Assembly (NCBI GenBank): GCA_903837125.1
Contig: CAILTG010000082.1
Span: forward strand, 1 to 41,922
Direction of reading: 5' to 3'
Origin: Candidatus Magasanikiibacteriota bacterium
GTDB taxonomy: Bacteria; Patescibacteriota; Patescibacteriia; Magasanikbacterales; UBA922
DNA: 41,922 bases
The notes below the pieces were generated by a model that had not been told where the DNA came from, searched no databases, and saw only the letters and a program-made list of their open reading frames with translations. A program made the translations under genes and the position numbers. Of the stretch, positions 23,799-36,033 are shown piece by piece; position 1 is the first letter of the stretch, and the number at the start of each line of letters is the position of its first letter.

Positions 23799-23824
23799 TT
23801 CCCAATTATCCACACTTTGCAGCC

Positions 23825-23853
23825 TTGCCGATAAAAACAATTAATGCTAAACT
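23825..23853 (+). promoter_or_regulatory. Promoter upstream of the CodA-like gene
   Basis: TTGCCG-17 nt-TAAACT with extended -10 TGC. Confidence 0.5.
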
Positions 23854-23862
23854 ACCCCCGAT

Positions 23863-23901
23863 ATGAAACATTTAGACGATACAATCTACAAAAACTTTTA
23901 A
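23863..23901 (+). other. Short candidate leader ORF (MKHLDDTIYKNF)
   Basis: ATG AAA CAT TTA GAC GAT ACA ATC TAC AAA AAC TTT TAA between promoter and terminator. Confidence 0.35.
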
Positions 23902-23907
23902 CAACCG

Positions 23908-23932
23908 GCCACCCGAAGAGGGTGGCTTTTTT
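23908..23932 (+). terminator. Intrinsic terminator just upstream of the CodA-like start codon
   Basis: GCCACCC-GAAGA-GGGTGGC-TTTTTT; start codon at 23941. Confidence 0.85.
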
Positions 23933-23940
23933 AAAAAAAT

Positions 23941-24912
23941 ATGCAACCATGGAATTTAAAAACCCAACTGCTTGAAAATATAGAAAAAAATGGCGGCTTT
24001 GTAAATTGTCACGCTCATTTTGACAAAGCTTTTTATATTACCAAAGAAGGTTTGGATTTGAGTATGAAACTGCATATGAAAGAAAAATGGAATTTAAGCG
24101 ATCAGATAAAGAGAAGTTCTACTCAAGAACAAATTGAAGAGCGCCTCTGTACAGCCCTGGATATAATGCTCTCTCAAGGGGTAAAATTGGCCTCAAGTTT
24201 TGTAGATGCTTACGAGGCAGTAAATCACAAAGCGATTGATGCTGCTTTAAAAGTAAAACAAAATTACAAAGATAAAATAAAATTTTTAATTGCCACTCAA
24301 CCTTTGGGCGGTTTAATAACCCCAGAAGCTAAAAAACTATACGAAGAAATCACAGCCAAAGCCGATATTGCCGGTGGTCTGCCTTCCAAAGACCGTCCAC
24401 GCGAAGATGAAAACCTAAATAATTTATTTTCTATTGCCAAAAACTTAAATAAACCAATTCACGTGCATATAGATCAAGAAAATGATATAACAGAAAGAGA
24501 TACAGAAAAACTAATCAAAACCACAATTAAACATGGCTACCAAGGACGGGTAGTGGCTGTGCATGTAATTTCCGTCTCTGCCCAACCCCAAGAATACCGG
24601 CGGGAACTATACAAAAAAATAGCCGACGCCGGAATATTTGTCGTTGTTTGTCCAAGCGCTGGCTTATCAATGAAACAGCCAGACCAAATTTCACCTACGC
24701 ATAATTGTATTGCTAATGTGGCAGAAATGATTGAGGCAGGCCTGACAATTGGAATTGGCTGTGACAATATTCATGATTTTTACCAACCATTTATTGACGG
24801 CGACCTGTGGACCGAATTAAGAATGTTGCAAGAAGCCTGCCGTTATTACAATTTTGAAGAATTATTAAAAATTGCCACCACAAATGGCAAAAAAATATTA
24901 GAAATTCGCTAA
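23941..24912 (+). CDS. CodA-like metal-dependent amidohydrolase
   Basis: NCHAHFDKAF, HVHIDQEN, AVHVISV, CPSAGLSMKQ, IGCDNIHDFYQPF resemble cytosine deaminase motifs; substrate not certain. Confidence 0.75.
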   Translation: MQPWNLKTQLLENIEKNGGFVNCHAHFDKAFYITKEGLDLSMKLHMKEKWNLSDQIKRSSTQEQIEERLCTALDIMLSQGVKLASSFVDAYEAVNHKAIDAALKVKQNYKDKIKFLIATQPLGGLITPEAKKLYEEITAKADIAGGLPSKDRPREDENLNNLFSIAKNLNKPIHVHIDQENDITERDTEKLIKTTIKHGYQGRVVAVHVISVSAQPQEYRRELYKKIADAGIFVVVCPSAGLSMKQPDQISPTHNCIANVAEMIEAGLTIGIGCDNIHDFYQPFIDGDLWTELRMLQEACRYYNFEELLKIATTNGKKILEIR

Positions 24913-30202: not shown

Positions 30203-30967
30203 ATGCTATCATATTCTCAACGCGCCGACCTCTGTTCTAATCCCACCGCTATCCATTTATTAAAACTAATGGATCGCAAAAAAACTAATCTCTGTATTGC
30301 CGCTGATGTGGTAATGAAAGATGAATTATTAAAAATTGCTGACGAATTGGGCCCAGAAATTTGTATCTTAAAAACGCATATTGATATTATTGCTGATTTT
30401 GACGCTGATTTACTTATTGAACTGCAAAGATTTTCAGAAAAACACGACTTTCTGTTATTTGAAGATCGTAAATTTGCTGATATTGGTAATACAGTTAAAT
30501 ACCAGTATCAAGACGGTATTTATAATATTGCTGATTGGGCTCATATAACCAATGCCCACAGTGTTCCTGGCCCAGGAATTATCCAGGGATTAAAAGAAGT
30601 GGGTTTACCCAGAGGCCGAGGATTATTATTACTCGCTGAAATGAGTTCCAAGGGAACTTTAGCCAAGGGCAATTATACCGAAGAAACCCTTAAAATGGCA
30701 CAAGAAAACAAAGACTTTGTAATTGGTTTCATTACCATGCGGCAATTAATTGATGATCCTTGTTTTATTAACATGACTCCTGGTGTACAACTGGCCACAG
30801 GCGGCGATACACTAGGACAGCAATACTATACGCCAGAAAAAGTAATTAAAGAAAACAAATCCGATATTATTATTGTCGGACGAGGAATTTATGAAGCAGA
30901 CAACCCACTAGCTGAAGCCAAAAAATACCGAGAGGCAGGCTGGTTGGCTTATCAAAGCAGAACATAA
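30203..30967 (+). CDS. pyrF: Orotidine 5'-phosphate decarboxylase, eukaryotic UMPS-like
   Basis: [100 protein letters not shown]. Confidence 0.94.
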
Positions 30968-31006
30968 AAAAGTAGAGACGAGGCAGTGCCTCGTCTCTAC
31001 TTTTTT
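30966..31006. terminator. Long bidirectional terminator between pyrF and the SET gene
   Basis: AAAAAAGTAGAGACGAGGCA-G-TGCCTCGTCTCTACTTTTTT. Confidence 0.88.
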
Positions 31007-31017
31007 ATGTGTTTAAA

Positions 31018-31758
31018 TCATTTTTTTATTGGACAAGACAACAACAGGCCATCCATAACGCCATATACTGACAATTTTAATTTACTAAATTTAAGACAAC
31101 GTCCACTTTCCCTAATTCTTTTTCTGAGCTCTTTTATTGAAGGTAAAAAACTGTCTAAAAAAACCAACGGTTTTTTACTAAGATTTCCATAAATATCATA
31201 TGCTAAATAATCTGGTATAAATTCTGGATATTTTTTTAACGGAGGCAGGACCTGTCCAATTTTCACTTCCATTTTATTCCAGTACTTCTTATCAAGTTTT
31301 TTGGAAAAAACACTCCAACGACTGGTCCGGTCATCGGTACAATACATAGTAGCGCGACAAACCGGACTACCACAATGACAAATATCCACACAATCAAAAT
31401 CTTTTTCCGGAGGATAAAAATAATTAATTGTCAGTTCTTCTCCAACAAAAATCTTTCTCAAAGCAAAAAAGAGCATATGACCATGAAATTGAAAACTTTC
31501 GCAATTAGGCGAACAAGAATGATTAAACAAATATAAATCTGGTTTTTTTATATCCGGAAAGATCGCCGTTTTTGTGGTGTAGCACATACTATAAAAACCA
31601 AACTTTTTTTCATATTTTTCAAGATCATCATCAGCAATAATTATGCCTAAATAATCACCAATTAGAGTGCCGGCTTCAATATTTTTTGAAGCATATACTC
31701 CTCTACCTTTTTTCTTGGTTTTCCTTATTTCGTAATAGTCGCTAGAAATTAAAAACAT
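31018..31758 (-). CDS. SET-domain protein (lysine methyltransferase-like) with post-SET Cys cluster and about 90 aa C-terminal extension
   Basis: KGRGVYASKNIEAGTLIGDYLG, LFNHSCSPNCESFQF, GEELTINYFYP, CHCGSPVCRATMYC. Confidence 0.88.
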   Translation of the reverse strand: MFLISSDYYEIRKTKKKGRGVYASKNIEAGTLIGDYLGIIIADDDLEKYEKKFGFYSMCYTTKTAIFPDIKKPDLYLFNHSCSPNCESFQFHGHMLFFALRKIFVGEELTINYFYPPEKDFDCVDICHCGSPVCRATMYCTDDRTSRWSVFSKKLDKKYWNKMEVKIGQVLPPLKKYPEFIPDYLAYDIYGNLSKKPLVFLDSFLPSIKELRKRIRESGRCLKFSKLKLSVYGVMDGLLLSCPIKK

Positions 31759-31763
31759 AAACT

Positions 31764-34232
31764 TTAGATCCAGTTAGTCTGCAAATGATTATAAGGTGGA
31801 TTATTTTTGTAACGCTTAATGGCCATTCTAATTACTTCTTCCAAAAAGTCGCCATAATTCATGCCAATTAATTCTGCCACGCCCGGTGTACTATCTCCTT
31901 CGTTGATAGAAGGGTTAGGATTTAATTCCAGTACATAAGGATTATCATCTTTATCTACTCTAATCTCAATCCGGCCATAATCATGGCAATCTAAAATATT
32001 ATAAGTGTCTAAAGCAATCTCCGAAAGTAATGATTCTAATTTTTTACTAACATTTCTAGGCGGAGTTTGAATAATAATTTTATCGTAAACAGCATCATTA
32101 ATACCCCACTTGGCGTCAAAAGGATAAATATGCCAATAACCTTCGGGCATCTCTTTAAAAATAGAACGAGAGAGCGGTAAAACACGCAAATCTTTAGCAT
32201 CATTGCCAATTACATTCACATCATATTCATCTCCTTCAATATACTCTTCAATTAAGGCCGGAGACTTCAATCCCTCAATAACTTTTTTTAATTCACGATT
32301 CAATTCCTCTTTATTAGTAACTACTGAATCATTGGTGATACCTATGGAATTGTCACTATTGGCCGGCTTAACTATCAAAGGATACTGTAAATCTTCTCTA
32401 ATATCATCATCCATGGTATAAACATAATCCCATTCTGGAGTAGGTATATTATGATAAGACAATAATTTTTTTACCCTAATTTTATCTATACACAAAGCCA
32501 GAGTGGTAGGATTGGAACCAGTGTAAGGAATTTGTAATACATCTAATATTGAAGCGGCATGCGGCTCTAAAAGGCTAGAATTATTAATACGCTCACAAAC
32601 ATTAAAAACCACATCCACATCGCTATTTTTAAGTTGGTTAAAAGCTTCACCAATATTATTAAAATCAAAAAAAGTAACTTTATAACCCAACCCCTGCAAA
32701 GTTTTCTGGATAATATTACCTATGGAAGTTAAATCCGCCTCTATTGGATTTTGGCTATCATTAACATTGCAGGCAATACCAATATGCAAATTACGTTGAT
32801 TTTCTTTGGTAATTCTTTTTTTAATACTTTCTACTTTAGCCGCCTGAATAAGTAAATTTTTATTCAGAACCGCTGAAGAATACCGATCTTTACGCGTGGT
32901 TTTACCGATTGAAGAACTGTTGGTAAATTTAACCACACTATAACTAATATAAGACAAGGCCTCTTTTAAATTATCTTGGGCATCCAAATAATTAGCTCCT
33001 GAAACTGTTAACCAACCTAAACTTTCATAACCTTCTGGTGGTAAAAGAATGGCATCACCAACTTCCCGATAAAGATCAATATCCTCCAAATATTTCTTTC
33101 TCTTTAATTCATCTGAAACAGATAATTCCACTACCAAACCAGAATTATCCGGATACAAATCCCAGCCCACCACATACTTTCTGGGCATTAAATTTTTCAT
33201 GTTTTTCAAAAATGAACCAAAAGCAATCTTAACTGCGCCTTCAATCAAATCTACCCCCCAAGCATCTTTAATATAAGAATAAACATAATCACCTCCCAAG
33301 CGCAAATTAACTTCCAAAGGCACTGGACCATTTTTAGTAGACTTGGCTTCAAAATGAATACAACCATTTTGAATTCCCAATTTTTCCAAAGTTTCCTCAG
33401 CCATTTCAATCAATTCTTTTTGATTAACCTCTGGCAAAGTAGACGGTGTGGCCTGTCCACTATCAATAAAAAATTCACCCTTATCTTTATTAAAATTATC
33501 GGAAACCGCATAAAACTTGATTTTCCCATTTTGCAGCAAAATATCAATATCCACCTCATTACCGCTTATATATTCTTCCACAAAAATATCCATGCCATCA
33601 GCCAAAGCAGTTTCCACATCTGACGAAATAATTTTTTGGATGTAATTAAAAGCCTCTTCTAACCCGTTCGCCTCATCAACTTTGAGCACAAAAGCACCTC
33701 TGGACCCAAAAACCGGCTTAACTACCAAGGGAAAATTAAAACTATTTTTTACATATTCTAGATCATCTTTGTTCTTTATTATTTTATAATGCGGAGTAGT
33801 AATTCCATTTTTACCGCAAAATTCCCTAAATAGATACTTGTTTCTTACCTGTGCAGAAATATTGAAAGGCACACCAATCAAATCAAGTTTGTCCACGATT
33901 TTGGAAGTTAATAAAACGTCGTCCTCCCAAAAAGTAACCACTCCATCAATTTTAATCTCTGCATTATTCTTTAAAAATAAATTTAATTTTTTTATTGAAT
34001 CAGCATGGTTAAAAGTGTCGGCAATAATCCAATGATCCACATATGGCTCAGCCCAATTTTTTTCTCCATTTAAAACCACAATCTTCAAATCCATTTTCTT
34101 TAATTTTTGAAAAATAAATTTTTTCTCTAGTGGTCCGGTATTTATCACCAACAAAGTTTTTCCATGGTAGCCATTACCAGAGTCAACTTCAGTTAAATTA
34201 TTTAAATTTTGACTTTCAAGATTATTATCCAT
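31764..34232 (-). CDS. Double ATP-grasp protein: N-terminal carboxylate-amine ligase-like, C-terminal D-Ala-D-Ala-ligase-like
   Basis: 822 aa; module 1: NFPLVVKPVFGSRGAFVLKV, VEEYISGNEVDIDILL, PLEVNLRLGGDYVYSY; module 2: PYTGSNPTTLALCIDKIRVKKLLSYHNIPTP, YPLIVKPANSDNSIGI, IEEYIEGDEYDVNVIG, GRIEIRVDKDDNPYVLELNPNPSI. Confidence 0.85.
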   Translation of the reverse strand: MDNNLESQNLNNLTEVDSGNGYHGKTLLVINTGPLEKKFIFQKLKKMDLKIVVLNGEKNWAEPYVDHWIIADTFNHADSIKKLNLFLKNNAEIKIDGVVTFWEDDVLLTSKIVDKLDLIGVPFNISAQVRNKYLFREFCGKNGITTPHYKIIKNKDDLEYVKNSFNFPLVVKPVFGSRGAFVLKVDEANGLEEAFNYIQKIISSDVETALADGMDIFVEEYISGNEVDIDILLQNGKIKFYAVSDNFNKDKGEFFIDSGQATPSTLPEVNQKELIEMAEETLEKLGIQNGCIHFEAKSTKNGPVPLEVNLRLGGDYVYSYIKDAWGVDLIEGAVKIAFGSFLKNMKNLMPRKYVVGWDLYPDNSGLVVELSVSDELKRKKYLEDIDLYREVGDAILLPPEGYESLGWLTVSGANYLDAQDNLKEALSYISYSVVKFTNSSSIGKTTRKDRYSSAVLNKNLLIQAAKVESIKKRITKENQRNLHIGIACNVNDSQNPIEADLTSIGNIIQKTLQGLGYKVTFFDFNNIGEAFNQLKNSDVDVVFNVCERINNSSLLEPHAASILDVLQIPYTGSNPTTLALCIDKIRVKKLLSYHNIPTPEWDYVYTMDDDIREDLQYPLIVKPANSDNSIGITNDSVVTNKEELNRELKKVIEGLKSPALIEEYIEGDEYDVNVIGNDAKDLRVLPLSRSIFKEMPEGYWHIYPFDAKWGINDAVYDKIIIQTPPRNVSKKLESLLSEIALDTYNILDCHDYGRIEIRVDKDDNPYVLELNPNPSINEGDSTPGVAELIGMNYGDFLEEVIRMAIKRYKNNPPYNHLQTNWI

Positions 34233-34240
34233 AAAAAAAA

Positions 34241-35164
34241 TTAAACATTATCAAAAAAATAAGTCGGTCTTTTTTCCAAACGCCAATGGTCTTTCCAGCC
34301 ACATTCATCAGCTAAATAATTAATTTCTTTGGCTTTTAAACCAATAGCATCCTTAATACATTCTACATTCAAATATTTATAAATATTGTTTATCTCTTCT
34401 ACATTACCAGACTGTAATAAAGTGTATACTCCATTATAAAAAATGTTGACAGTTGCTGCTTTTAACTCACCATCAATCTCTAAACTAACCATTCTGATTT
34501 TGTCTTTTAAAGACTTCTCCGCCAATAAACTTTTAAAAACCAAACGAAAACTATCTTCACTAAATAAAGATTCCTCCCCAAATCTTTTTTTATTCATTTT
34601 TACCATTTCTTCAAAATCAGCAAAACGATTGAAAAAAACTTGTGGCTGGAGAGCGGCTATTTTTTTAAGCTCATTATTAATATTTTTACGACTTTTTTTG
34701 CTAAAAGATAAAAAATACTTTTCCAAACTGTAATCGTATTTTTCTAAATCTAAAAAATAAATTTCTTCATCTGGCTGTAATTCAGGTAAATAAACTAATT
34801 CTTGATGATCAATAAATGATAAACAAACTTTTTGCCCAGGGACATTGGCTAAAAACAACTTTAAATATTCTCGCTTAAATTCTTCTTTTATATAAAAAGT
34901 AAATTCTTCCAACCAGTCTCCTCCTCCCCAAAAAACATAATAACCATCATTTTGATCATTATCATACTCTTCATAGAGCAAAGGCAAAAAACCAATATCT
35001 TCGCCATTTAGATTTCCCACCAAAAAACTAGGAGGGTATTTTGATTGTTTGGCAAAAATATTTCTTACCTCCCACAAATCTGCAAAACTTTTCTTTGGTG
35101 AAAAAAAATTCCAAAGTTTCTGACATTCTTTCAGATCATTCTCCACTCTAAACGTTATAGCCAT
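34241..35164 (-). CDS. GNAT-fold protein of the CelD/FemAB-like (Acetyltransf_6) type
   Basis: 307 aa; KKSRKNINNELKKI, FADFEEMVKMNKKRFG, RMVSLEIDGELKAATVNIFYNGVYTLLQSGNVEEINNIYKYLNVECIKDAI, WRLEKRPTYFF. Confidence 0.75.
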   Translation of the reverse strand: MAITFRVENDLKECQKLWNFFSPKKSFADLWEVRNIFAKQSKYPPSFLVGNLNGEDIGFLPLLYEEYDNDQNDGYYVFWGGGDWLEEFTFYIKEEFKREYLKLFLANVPGQKVCLSFIDHQELVYLPELQPDEEIYFLDLEKYDYSLEKYFLSFSKKSRKNINNELKKIAALQPQVFFNRFADFEEMVKMNKKRFGEESLFSEDSFRLVFKSLLAEKSLKDKIRMVSLEIDGELKAATVNIFYNGVYTLLQSGNVEEINNIYKYLNVECIKDAIGLKAKEINYLADECGWKDHWRLEKRPTYFFDNV

Positions 35165-35171
35165 AATTTAT

Positions 35172-35200
35172 AAAAAACCAAGTTCGCCTACCGAACTTGG
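35172..35200 (-). terminator. Terminator-like hairpin in the leader of the GNAT/ATP-grasp/SET operon
   Basis: Minus strand CCAAGTTCG-GTAGG-CGAACTTGG-TTTTTT; GNAT ATG at 35164. Confidence 0.85.
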
Positions 35201-35265
35201 TTGAATGATTTCGATATTAGCAAACAAATTTTTTGAAAAAATAATTTTCAAACACTTCTACCAAT

Positions 35266-35293
35266 ATTGTATCATTATTAGAATATTAGTCAA
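35266..35293 (-). promoter_or_regulatory. Promoter upstream of the leader hairpin
   Basis: Minus strand TTGACT-16 nt-TACAAT with TGA before the -10. Confidence 0.65.
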
Positions 35294-35322: not shown

Positions 35323-36033
35323 TTAGGCATGAGGAAGATTACTAATTAAATTTCCCAAATCATCCACATCGGCCTTACTCACAATTCCTTTACGACGATC
35401 CATTTCCATTTTATATTTCATTTCTCGTCGTGCCTGGCGCGAAATAGGTTTACCTACCCCCACACCCTTAACATAAGGTTTAACTAAATCAAAAAAATAT
35501 TTTTGGTCTTTATCACTAATATTTTTAAAGGCCACTGGATTTAATTTACGCAAACGATAAAATTGTCGCCTAAAACTAGTAACACTTCTATCCATTCTAA
35601 AACCACTACCTGTCTTCACATTCATTTTTTCATAAACCCCCCCACTAGCCGCCTCAGCTAGTTTAGCAATCTCTTTGGCTTTTTCATTAGCTCTTTTTTG
35701 CATTGCCAATCGTTGTCCATAATGATATCTTGTCTCATTAGCCTCCTCATTATAAAGACCCTCCACAGCAGTAGCATTTTTGTCTCCCAAATGAGCTACA
35801 GAAGTGGTGGGAGACAATTCATCATTGCCAACTCGTGACACCGAAGTAGTGGCTTTACTACTAGGGTGTACCAACTGATTCATGGACACTTTGGCATTGT
35901 CAAGATCTTTTTTTTGATTTAATTTGGAAATCGAAAAATTTTGCGCCCGTGCTATACCACTTGATGGTACTGAACCAGAAGATTTAGAATTAGGCAAGAC
36001 TGATGGTAAATTTACAGCTGGATTGATAGGCAT
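35323..36033 (-). CDS. Hypothetical protein, Ser-rich N-terminus, basic C-terminus
   Basis: 236 aa ORF; stop 6 nt before miaA is in the same direction (miaA stop at 36040); no family recognised. Confidence 0.6.
   Translation of the reverse strand: MPINPAVNLPSVLPNSKSSGSVPSSGIARAQNFSISKLNQKKDLDNAKVSMNQLVHPSSKATTSVSRVGNDELSPTTSVAHLGDKNATAVEGLYNEEANETRYHYGQRLAMQKRANEKAKEIAKLAEAASGGVYEKMNVKTGSGFRMDRSVTSFRRQFYRLRKLNPVAFKNISDKDQKYFFDLVKPYVKGVGVGKPISRQARREMKYKMEMDRRKGIVSKADVDDLGNLISNLPHA

Follow-up and report, generated by a model that had tools for sequence, protein, structure and literature searches.

The operon of a GNAT-fold acyltransferase, a double ATP-grasp ligase and a SET-domain protein in an ultra-small Candidatus Magasanikiibacteriota bacterium starts with a leader in which a promoter, an intrinsic terminator and the ATG of the first gene follow one another, and the same anatomy recurs in front of orthologous ligases. 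This arrangement is best explained, with a probability of about 0.6, as a leader in which a terminator gates the GNAT-ligase-SET operon; the likeliest gate is coupled to translation and is possibly degenerate in this copy. The relevant features of the window, that is, the entire analysed DNA stretch of 41,922 nucleotides, are listed in Table 1.

Table 1. Features of the GNAT-ligase-SET locus in the window, with the grounds for each assignment.
Feature	Position	Strand	Basis
Sigma-70-type promoter, TTGACT-16-TACAAT with TG extension	35266..35293	-	sequence; enrichment of the class upstream of genes
Possible GTG-initiated leader ORF, MFENYFFKKFVC followed by stop	35217..35255	-	weak; stop 14 nt ahead of terminator
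A/T-only hairpin, TTTGAAAA-TTATT-TTTTCAAA	35232..35252	-	present, not significant
Possible TTG-initiated ORF, 27 codons	35168..35251	-	weak; crosses terminator, stop 3 nt before GNAT ATG
Intrinsic terminator, 11-bp hairpin and T-run	35172..35202	-	sequence; -15.4 kcal/mol
GNAT-fold acyltransferase (Acetyltransf_6, PF13480), first gene of operon	34241..35164	-	domain match; start backed by homologues
Double ATP-grasp ligase	31764..34232	-	N half L-amino-acid-ligase-like, C half D-Ala-D-Ala-ligase-like
SET-domain protein, third gene of operon	31018..31758	-	domain match
orf236, last gene of miaB-miaA-orf236	35323..36033	-	no own terminator ahead of GNAT promoter
Bidirectional terminator common to SET and convergent pyrF	30965..31007	.	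sequence

The promoter consists of a -35 element (TTGACT, 35293-35288) and a -10 element (TACAAT, 35271-35266) on the minus strand, separated by 16 nt, with a TG one base ahead of TACAAT that makes it an extended -10 promoter. The raw count of consensus sites is close to chance (51 found vs 43.8 expected). In the 738 kb of the genome that were sampled as stretches, the 60 kb of intergenic DNA upstream of genes contain 24 sites of the class to which this one belongs (10 of 12 matches plus the TG), and the 1170 kb of coding sequence (counting both strands) contain 19, i.e. an approximately 25-fold higher density upstream of genes, these counts being approximate as genes were simply called as the longest ORFs. 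Because of this enrichment, and despite the near-chance raw counts, the site is probably a genuine promoter, with transcription predicted to start at about 35259. The start codon of the GNAT gene, ATG 35164, is backed by the N-termini of homologues (MAITFRVEN vs MTITIKKIED, MGIDLRIAQS and MDKEIQFKIEN); the missing Shine-Dalgarno sequence is normal for this genome, where no Shine-Dalgarno enrichment is detectable across the 738 kb. A search of the PDB with the GNAT protein gave no match, and the N half of the ligase resembles the L-amino-acid ligase BL00235.

The terminator hairpin, AACCAAGTTCG-GTAGG-CGAACTTGGTT (35202-35176), adds two A-T pairs to a 9-bp core and, with 5 G-C pairs among the 11 and a 5-nt loop, is a strong site; it runs into T6 (35177-35172), which leaves 7 nt to the GNAT ATG. 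As far as can be judged from the sequence, the leader thus has the order of an attenuator, with the promoter upstream of the terminator and the terminator between the promoter and the first gene. Another promoter between the terminator and the ATG is ruled out, as merely 11 nt are left after the stem. The original prediction had named both elements, and both are there: the TTGACT-16-TACAAT promoter letter for letter, and the 9-bp hairpin with T6 about 7 nt ahead of the ATG, its pairing extending to 11 bp. The A/T hairpin that it placed between them is also present in the sequence but is not significant, since the pre-terminator leader that includes it is equalled or surpassed in folding by 113 of 200 shuffles. 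Folding of the whole leader has a z-score of -1.48. No antiterminator competing with the terminator in the manner of His/Trp-type attenuators was found in the GNAT leader, the strength of the best pairing being matched in 43 of 400 shuffles. Rfam covariance models yielded no match for this leader, nor for 12 loci including the related ligase leaders, and the GNAT leader accordingly falls in no known riboswitch, T-box or other Rfam leader class.

Between the promoter and the terminator of the GNAT leader, there is no ATG-initiated ORF, no leader peptide of the His/Trp type, with an ATG start and runs of cognate codons, and no acidic-proline motif of the kind described below for ligase leaders. 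A canonical leader peptide is therefore not supported in the GNAT copy. The two frames that could substitute for it start with GTG and TTG and are expected by chance; in a pyrBI-type attenuator, the stop of the leader ORF would lie at the terminator or beyond it. The GTG frame is weak, as an ORF of at least 8 codons arises in 439 of 500 shuffles of the leader, and the TTG frame is weak because TTG starts are rare in the genome (8 of 411 long genes in the 738-kb sample, compared with 401 that start with ATG, a preference due to the choice of the script). It is extremely improbable that the leader is a classical amino-acid attenuator with MFENYFFKKFVC as a Phe/Tyr-rich leader peptide and the pairing of TATCGAA with TTCGGTA as the antiterminator. 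That pairing exists, and five F/Y residues in 12 codons are matched in 25 of 500 shuffles, but the frame starts with GTG, the pairing is the one equalled in 43 of 400 shuffles, the operon is not one of Phe/Tyr synthesis, and the other ligase leaders contain no such peptide.

The layout of the leader is rare in the genome. The sampled 738 kb yielded 43 co-directional terminators, 25 of which start no more than about 40 nt past the stop codon of the upstream gene, and only three of which combine a distance of more than 100 nt from that stop with one of no more than 15 nt to the next ATG, namely, those of GNAT, hisG and the amidohydrolase gene at 23941. The hisG leader (L089, G000:C12, near 2030 on the minus strand) lies after a TrpR/YerC-like gene, and its terminator is 4 nt ahead of the hisG ATG. 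It contains MNLLTNQQFNHHLTCPK, and the tandem-His ORF is kept in relatives (L185 by translation, L182-L184 judged by eye); by its sequence, this leader is likely a his attenuator in Patescibacteria. The candidate hisG attenuator resembles the GNAT leader in the terminator that ends just before the first ATG and in the kind of promoter, and differs from it in having tandem His codons and, before the terminator, a strong hairpin, both of which the GNAT leader lacks. The amidohydrolase (PRK06886-like, NF005365) leader occupies positions 23799-23941 of the window (plus strand), upstream of the pyrD/pyrK/pyrE/pyrF region, and comprises a promoter-like site, a short ORF, a pyrimidine-rich stretch and a terminator abutting the ATG. 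In all 13 cases compared (the same genome and 12 relatives; loci L187-L199), the short ORF stops at, in or past the terminator, and the layout is kept while the hairpin sequences are entirely different. This leader looks like a pyrBI-type attenuator. The promoter-leader-terminator-ATG layout thus appears to mark regulated leaders in this lineage, a rule that would extend to GNAT by analogy.

The GNAT leader itself has no detectable kin: a DNA search of 86 genomes of the order returned only short A/T-rich matches that miss the terminator hairpin. A scan of genome contigs found no relative with GNAT as the query and four loci with the ligase. Operons that begin with GNAT are not found among the sampled relatives, most of which have the ligase before GNAT or a ligase without GNAT. 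With no GNAT-first relative in the sample and no relative of the leader DNA in the order, attenuation of the GNAT copy itself can only be presumed. The lack of relatives also bears on the alternative, raised in the original prediction, that a small RNA ends at the terminator. A stand-alone RNA of about 85 nt acting elsewhere is very unlikely: a promoter and a strong terminator do lie about 85 nt apart, but Rfam gives no match, a second copy is lacking, the 86 genomes contain no relative, nothing apart from the terminator folds significantly, and an ATG directly adjoins the terminator.

The ligase leaders of relatives are more informative about architecture. Of the 26 loci where the gap before the ligase is 90 nt or longer, 14 have a terminator no more than 40 nt ahead of the ligase ATG, against a background of 17 of 206 genes in the genome of the GNAT copy (Fisher p 1e-7, too small a value as related genomes were counted separately); the automated scan detected no such terminator in the other 12. 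A set of 17 ligase leaders (L008, L009, L011, L013, L014, L110, L113, L120, L124-L126, L131, L204-L206, L209 and L213) from across Patescibacteria share a terminator and a short ORF, 15-50 codons in length. The promoter is clear in most of them, and weak or unclear in L113, L124 and L125. The layout is common to these leaders, and the sequences are not alignable. The ORFs stop anywhere from about 14 nt ahead of the terminator to beyond it. In 15 of the 17 leaders, the ORF encodes a proline with an acidic residue a short way ahead of it (e.g. MDSDDQPPG..., MHTSSLEEPPSIVLN, MESNYSRSEEPDS..., MNQGENDEPPG...), compared with 68 of 702 intergenic mini-ORFs, with the reservation that the set was assembled by inspection, so that the motif statistics carry some selection; L113 was scored as ORF-less by the script, yet the ORF MNSQEDNQPPGVKINLFNNII is visible there. 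Leaders of this kind are absent from operons led by a gene other than the ligase and from the divergent ligase/GNAT pair of G015. The GNAT leader shares with the group the promoter and the terminator beside the first ATG of the operon, and lacks the short ATG-initiated ORF with the [DE].{0,2}P motif. Taken together, the ligase relatives and the hisG and amidohydrolase leaders support the architecture of the attenuated leader with read-through control that had been predicted, whereas the antiterminator of a classical attenuator is not supported.

Several ligase loci show further peculiarities. In L202 (G603, 3978-3900, minus strand), the ligase has the N-terminal extension MEKKVSIAGQDDPPPPGIDP, in which the leader motif QDDPPPPG is fused in frame to the enzyme. 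In L224 and L201 (G767), a Cys-rich, metal-binding-like ORF of 53 amino acids (MSDDCKCGCDCPFCEGCGYPECECRC...) directly precedes the ligase. In L117 (G374), the gap between ligase and SET contains a terminator-like hairpin (GCCGGTTTTTTAATGCCGGC followed by T8) that ends 8 nt before the SET ATG.

In peptide-antibiotic clusters, for example mccA-mccB, a small peptide gene is followed by a terminator and genes for modifying enzymes. The succession of short ORF, terminator and ligase genes in the relatives is similar, and the acidic-proline ORFs could conceivably encode, rather than regulatory leader peptides, ribosomally synthesized peptides on which the ligase and its GNAT/SET partners act, with the terminator keeping the peptide in high excess over the enzymes; the fusion of QDDPPPPG to the ligase N-terminus in L202 can be cited alongside this reading. 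It is nevertheless improbable. Unlike in mccA-mccB, the peptide is missing from the GNAT copy and from operons led by another gene, and the five leader peptides that were compared with NCBIfam gave no match. If it were true, the window copy would have lost or moved its peptide.

The operon upstream provides another account of the hairpin. It is possible, albeit rather unlikely, that the hairpin merely terminates miaB-miaA-orf236 and that GNAT-ligase-SET is expressed by constitutive partial read-through and an internal promoter, with no signal sensed. No other terminator lies between the orf236 stop codon (35323) and the GNAT promoter, and about half of the orf236 orthologues in relatives are followed by a terminator (automated scan, L021 not counted). 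Furthermore, orf236 has probably been separated from its old terminator by insertion of the three-gene operon, because in six loci of relatives (L024, L025, L027, L033, L034 and L037) miaA-orf236 is directly convergent with pyrF, and the orf236/pyrF terminator of L025 shares AAAAAAGTAGAGACG with the SET/pyrF terminator of the window. Such an insertion would have left orf236 in need of a new terminator. However, the stem starts 120 nt past the orf236 stop, well beyond the roughly 40 nt within which 25 of the 43 terminators begin, a good promoter sits upstream of the hairpin, and in relatives an equivalent terminator is present despite a divergent upstream gene (L120) or a further terminator upstream (L013). 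The suggestion that the terminator of the upstream operon overlaps the leader thus holds insofar as this is the sole candidate terminator for miaB-miaA-orf236, and is weakened by its distance from the stop codon. The two roles are compatible, and the hairpin at 35202-35172 may stop these transcripts as well.

For a terminator-gated leader, the following scheme can be proposed. RNA polymerase would initiate at the predicted start and synthesize an RNA leader about 85 nt long. Most transcripts would stop at the terminator, and a variable share would continue into GNAT. The gate, as the relatives suggest, would be a short leader ORF that ends at or inside the terminator. A ribosome reaching the end of this ORF would block the hairpin and turn the operon on, and one that stalls or drops off earlier would let the hairpin form and turn the operon off. 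In the relatives, stalling at the acidic-proline motif would close the operon. In the window copy, the leader ORF would be one of the unusual GTG/TTG frames, or else it has been lost, leaving a fixed partial terminator, which probably also halts the transcripts of miaB-miaA-orf236. Read-through, the ribosome as the gate and the signal are presumed components of this scheme.

An intrinsic terminator is repressed when a ribosome occupies a stop codon no more than about 27 nt ahead of it (PMC4824070), consecutive prolines encoded ahead of the terminator in the pyr leader lead to termination without EF-P (PMC5021804), and acidic-proline starts destabilise ribosomes, as in MgtL (PMC11282234). The leaders of the relatives agree with these findings. 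Surveys of 5' terminators discovered new attenuators by the same signature, a terminator that recurs before one gene family (PMC2965389). The closest working relatives appear to be attenuators of the pyrBI type, and the closest peptide is MgtL. The Escherichia coli pyrBI (pyrL) attenuator likewise has a promoter, a leader ORF overlapping an intrinsic terminator, and the structural gene, and translation close behind the polymerase prevents termination (PMC5021804, PMC4824070). Unlike pyrBI, the GNAT copy has no ATG leader ORF and its target is an amino-acid ligase operon; the pyrBI type fits the amidohydrolase leader better. The EPDP motif of MgtL, encoded in the mgtL leader of mgtA (PMC11282234), is mirrored by EEPDS, DEDPFP, DEPPG and EEPPS in the ligase leader ORFs of relatives. 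In contrast to these leaders with their intrinsic terminators, MgtL employs Rho and a structural switch, and the GNAT copy has no peptide.

The literature that we searched contains little on gene regulation in Patescibacteria. The leaders of the his genes, of the amidohydrolase near the pyrimidine genes and of the peptide-ligase operon suggest that switches made of a leader ORF and a terminator are a recurring device in this group. The acidic-proline leader ORF, which was not encountered in the Patescibacteria literature searched, could be a means of coupling a peptide-ligase operon to ribosome stalling.
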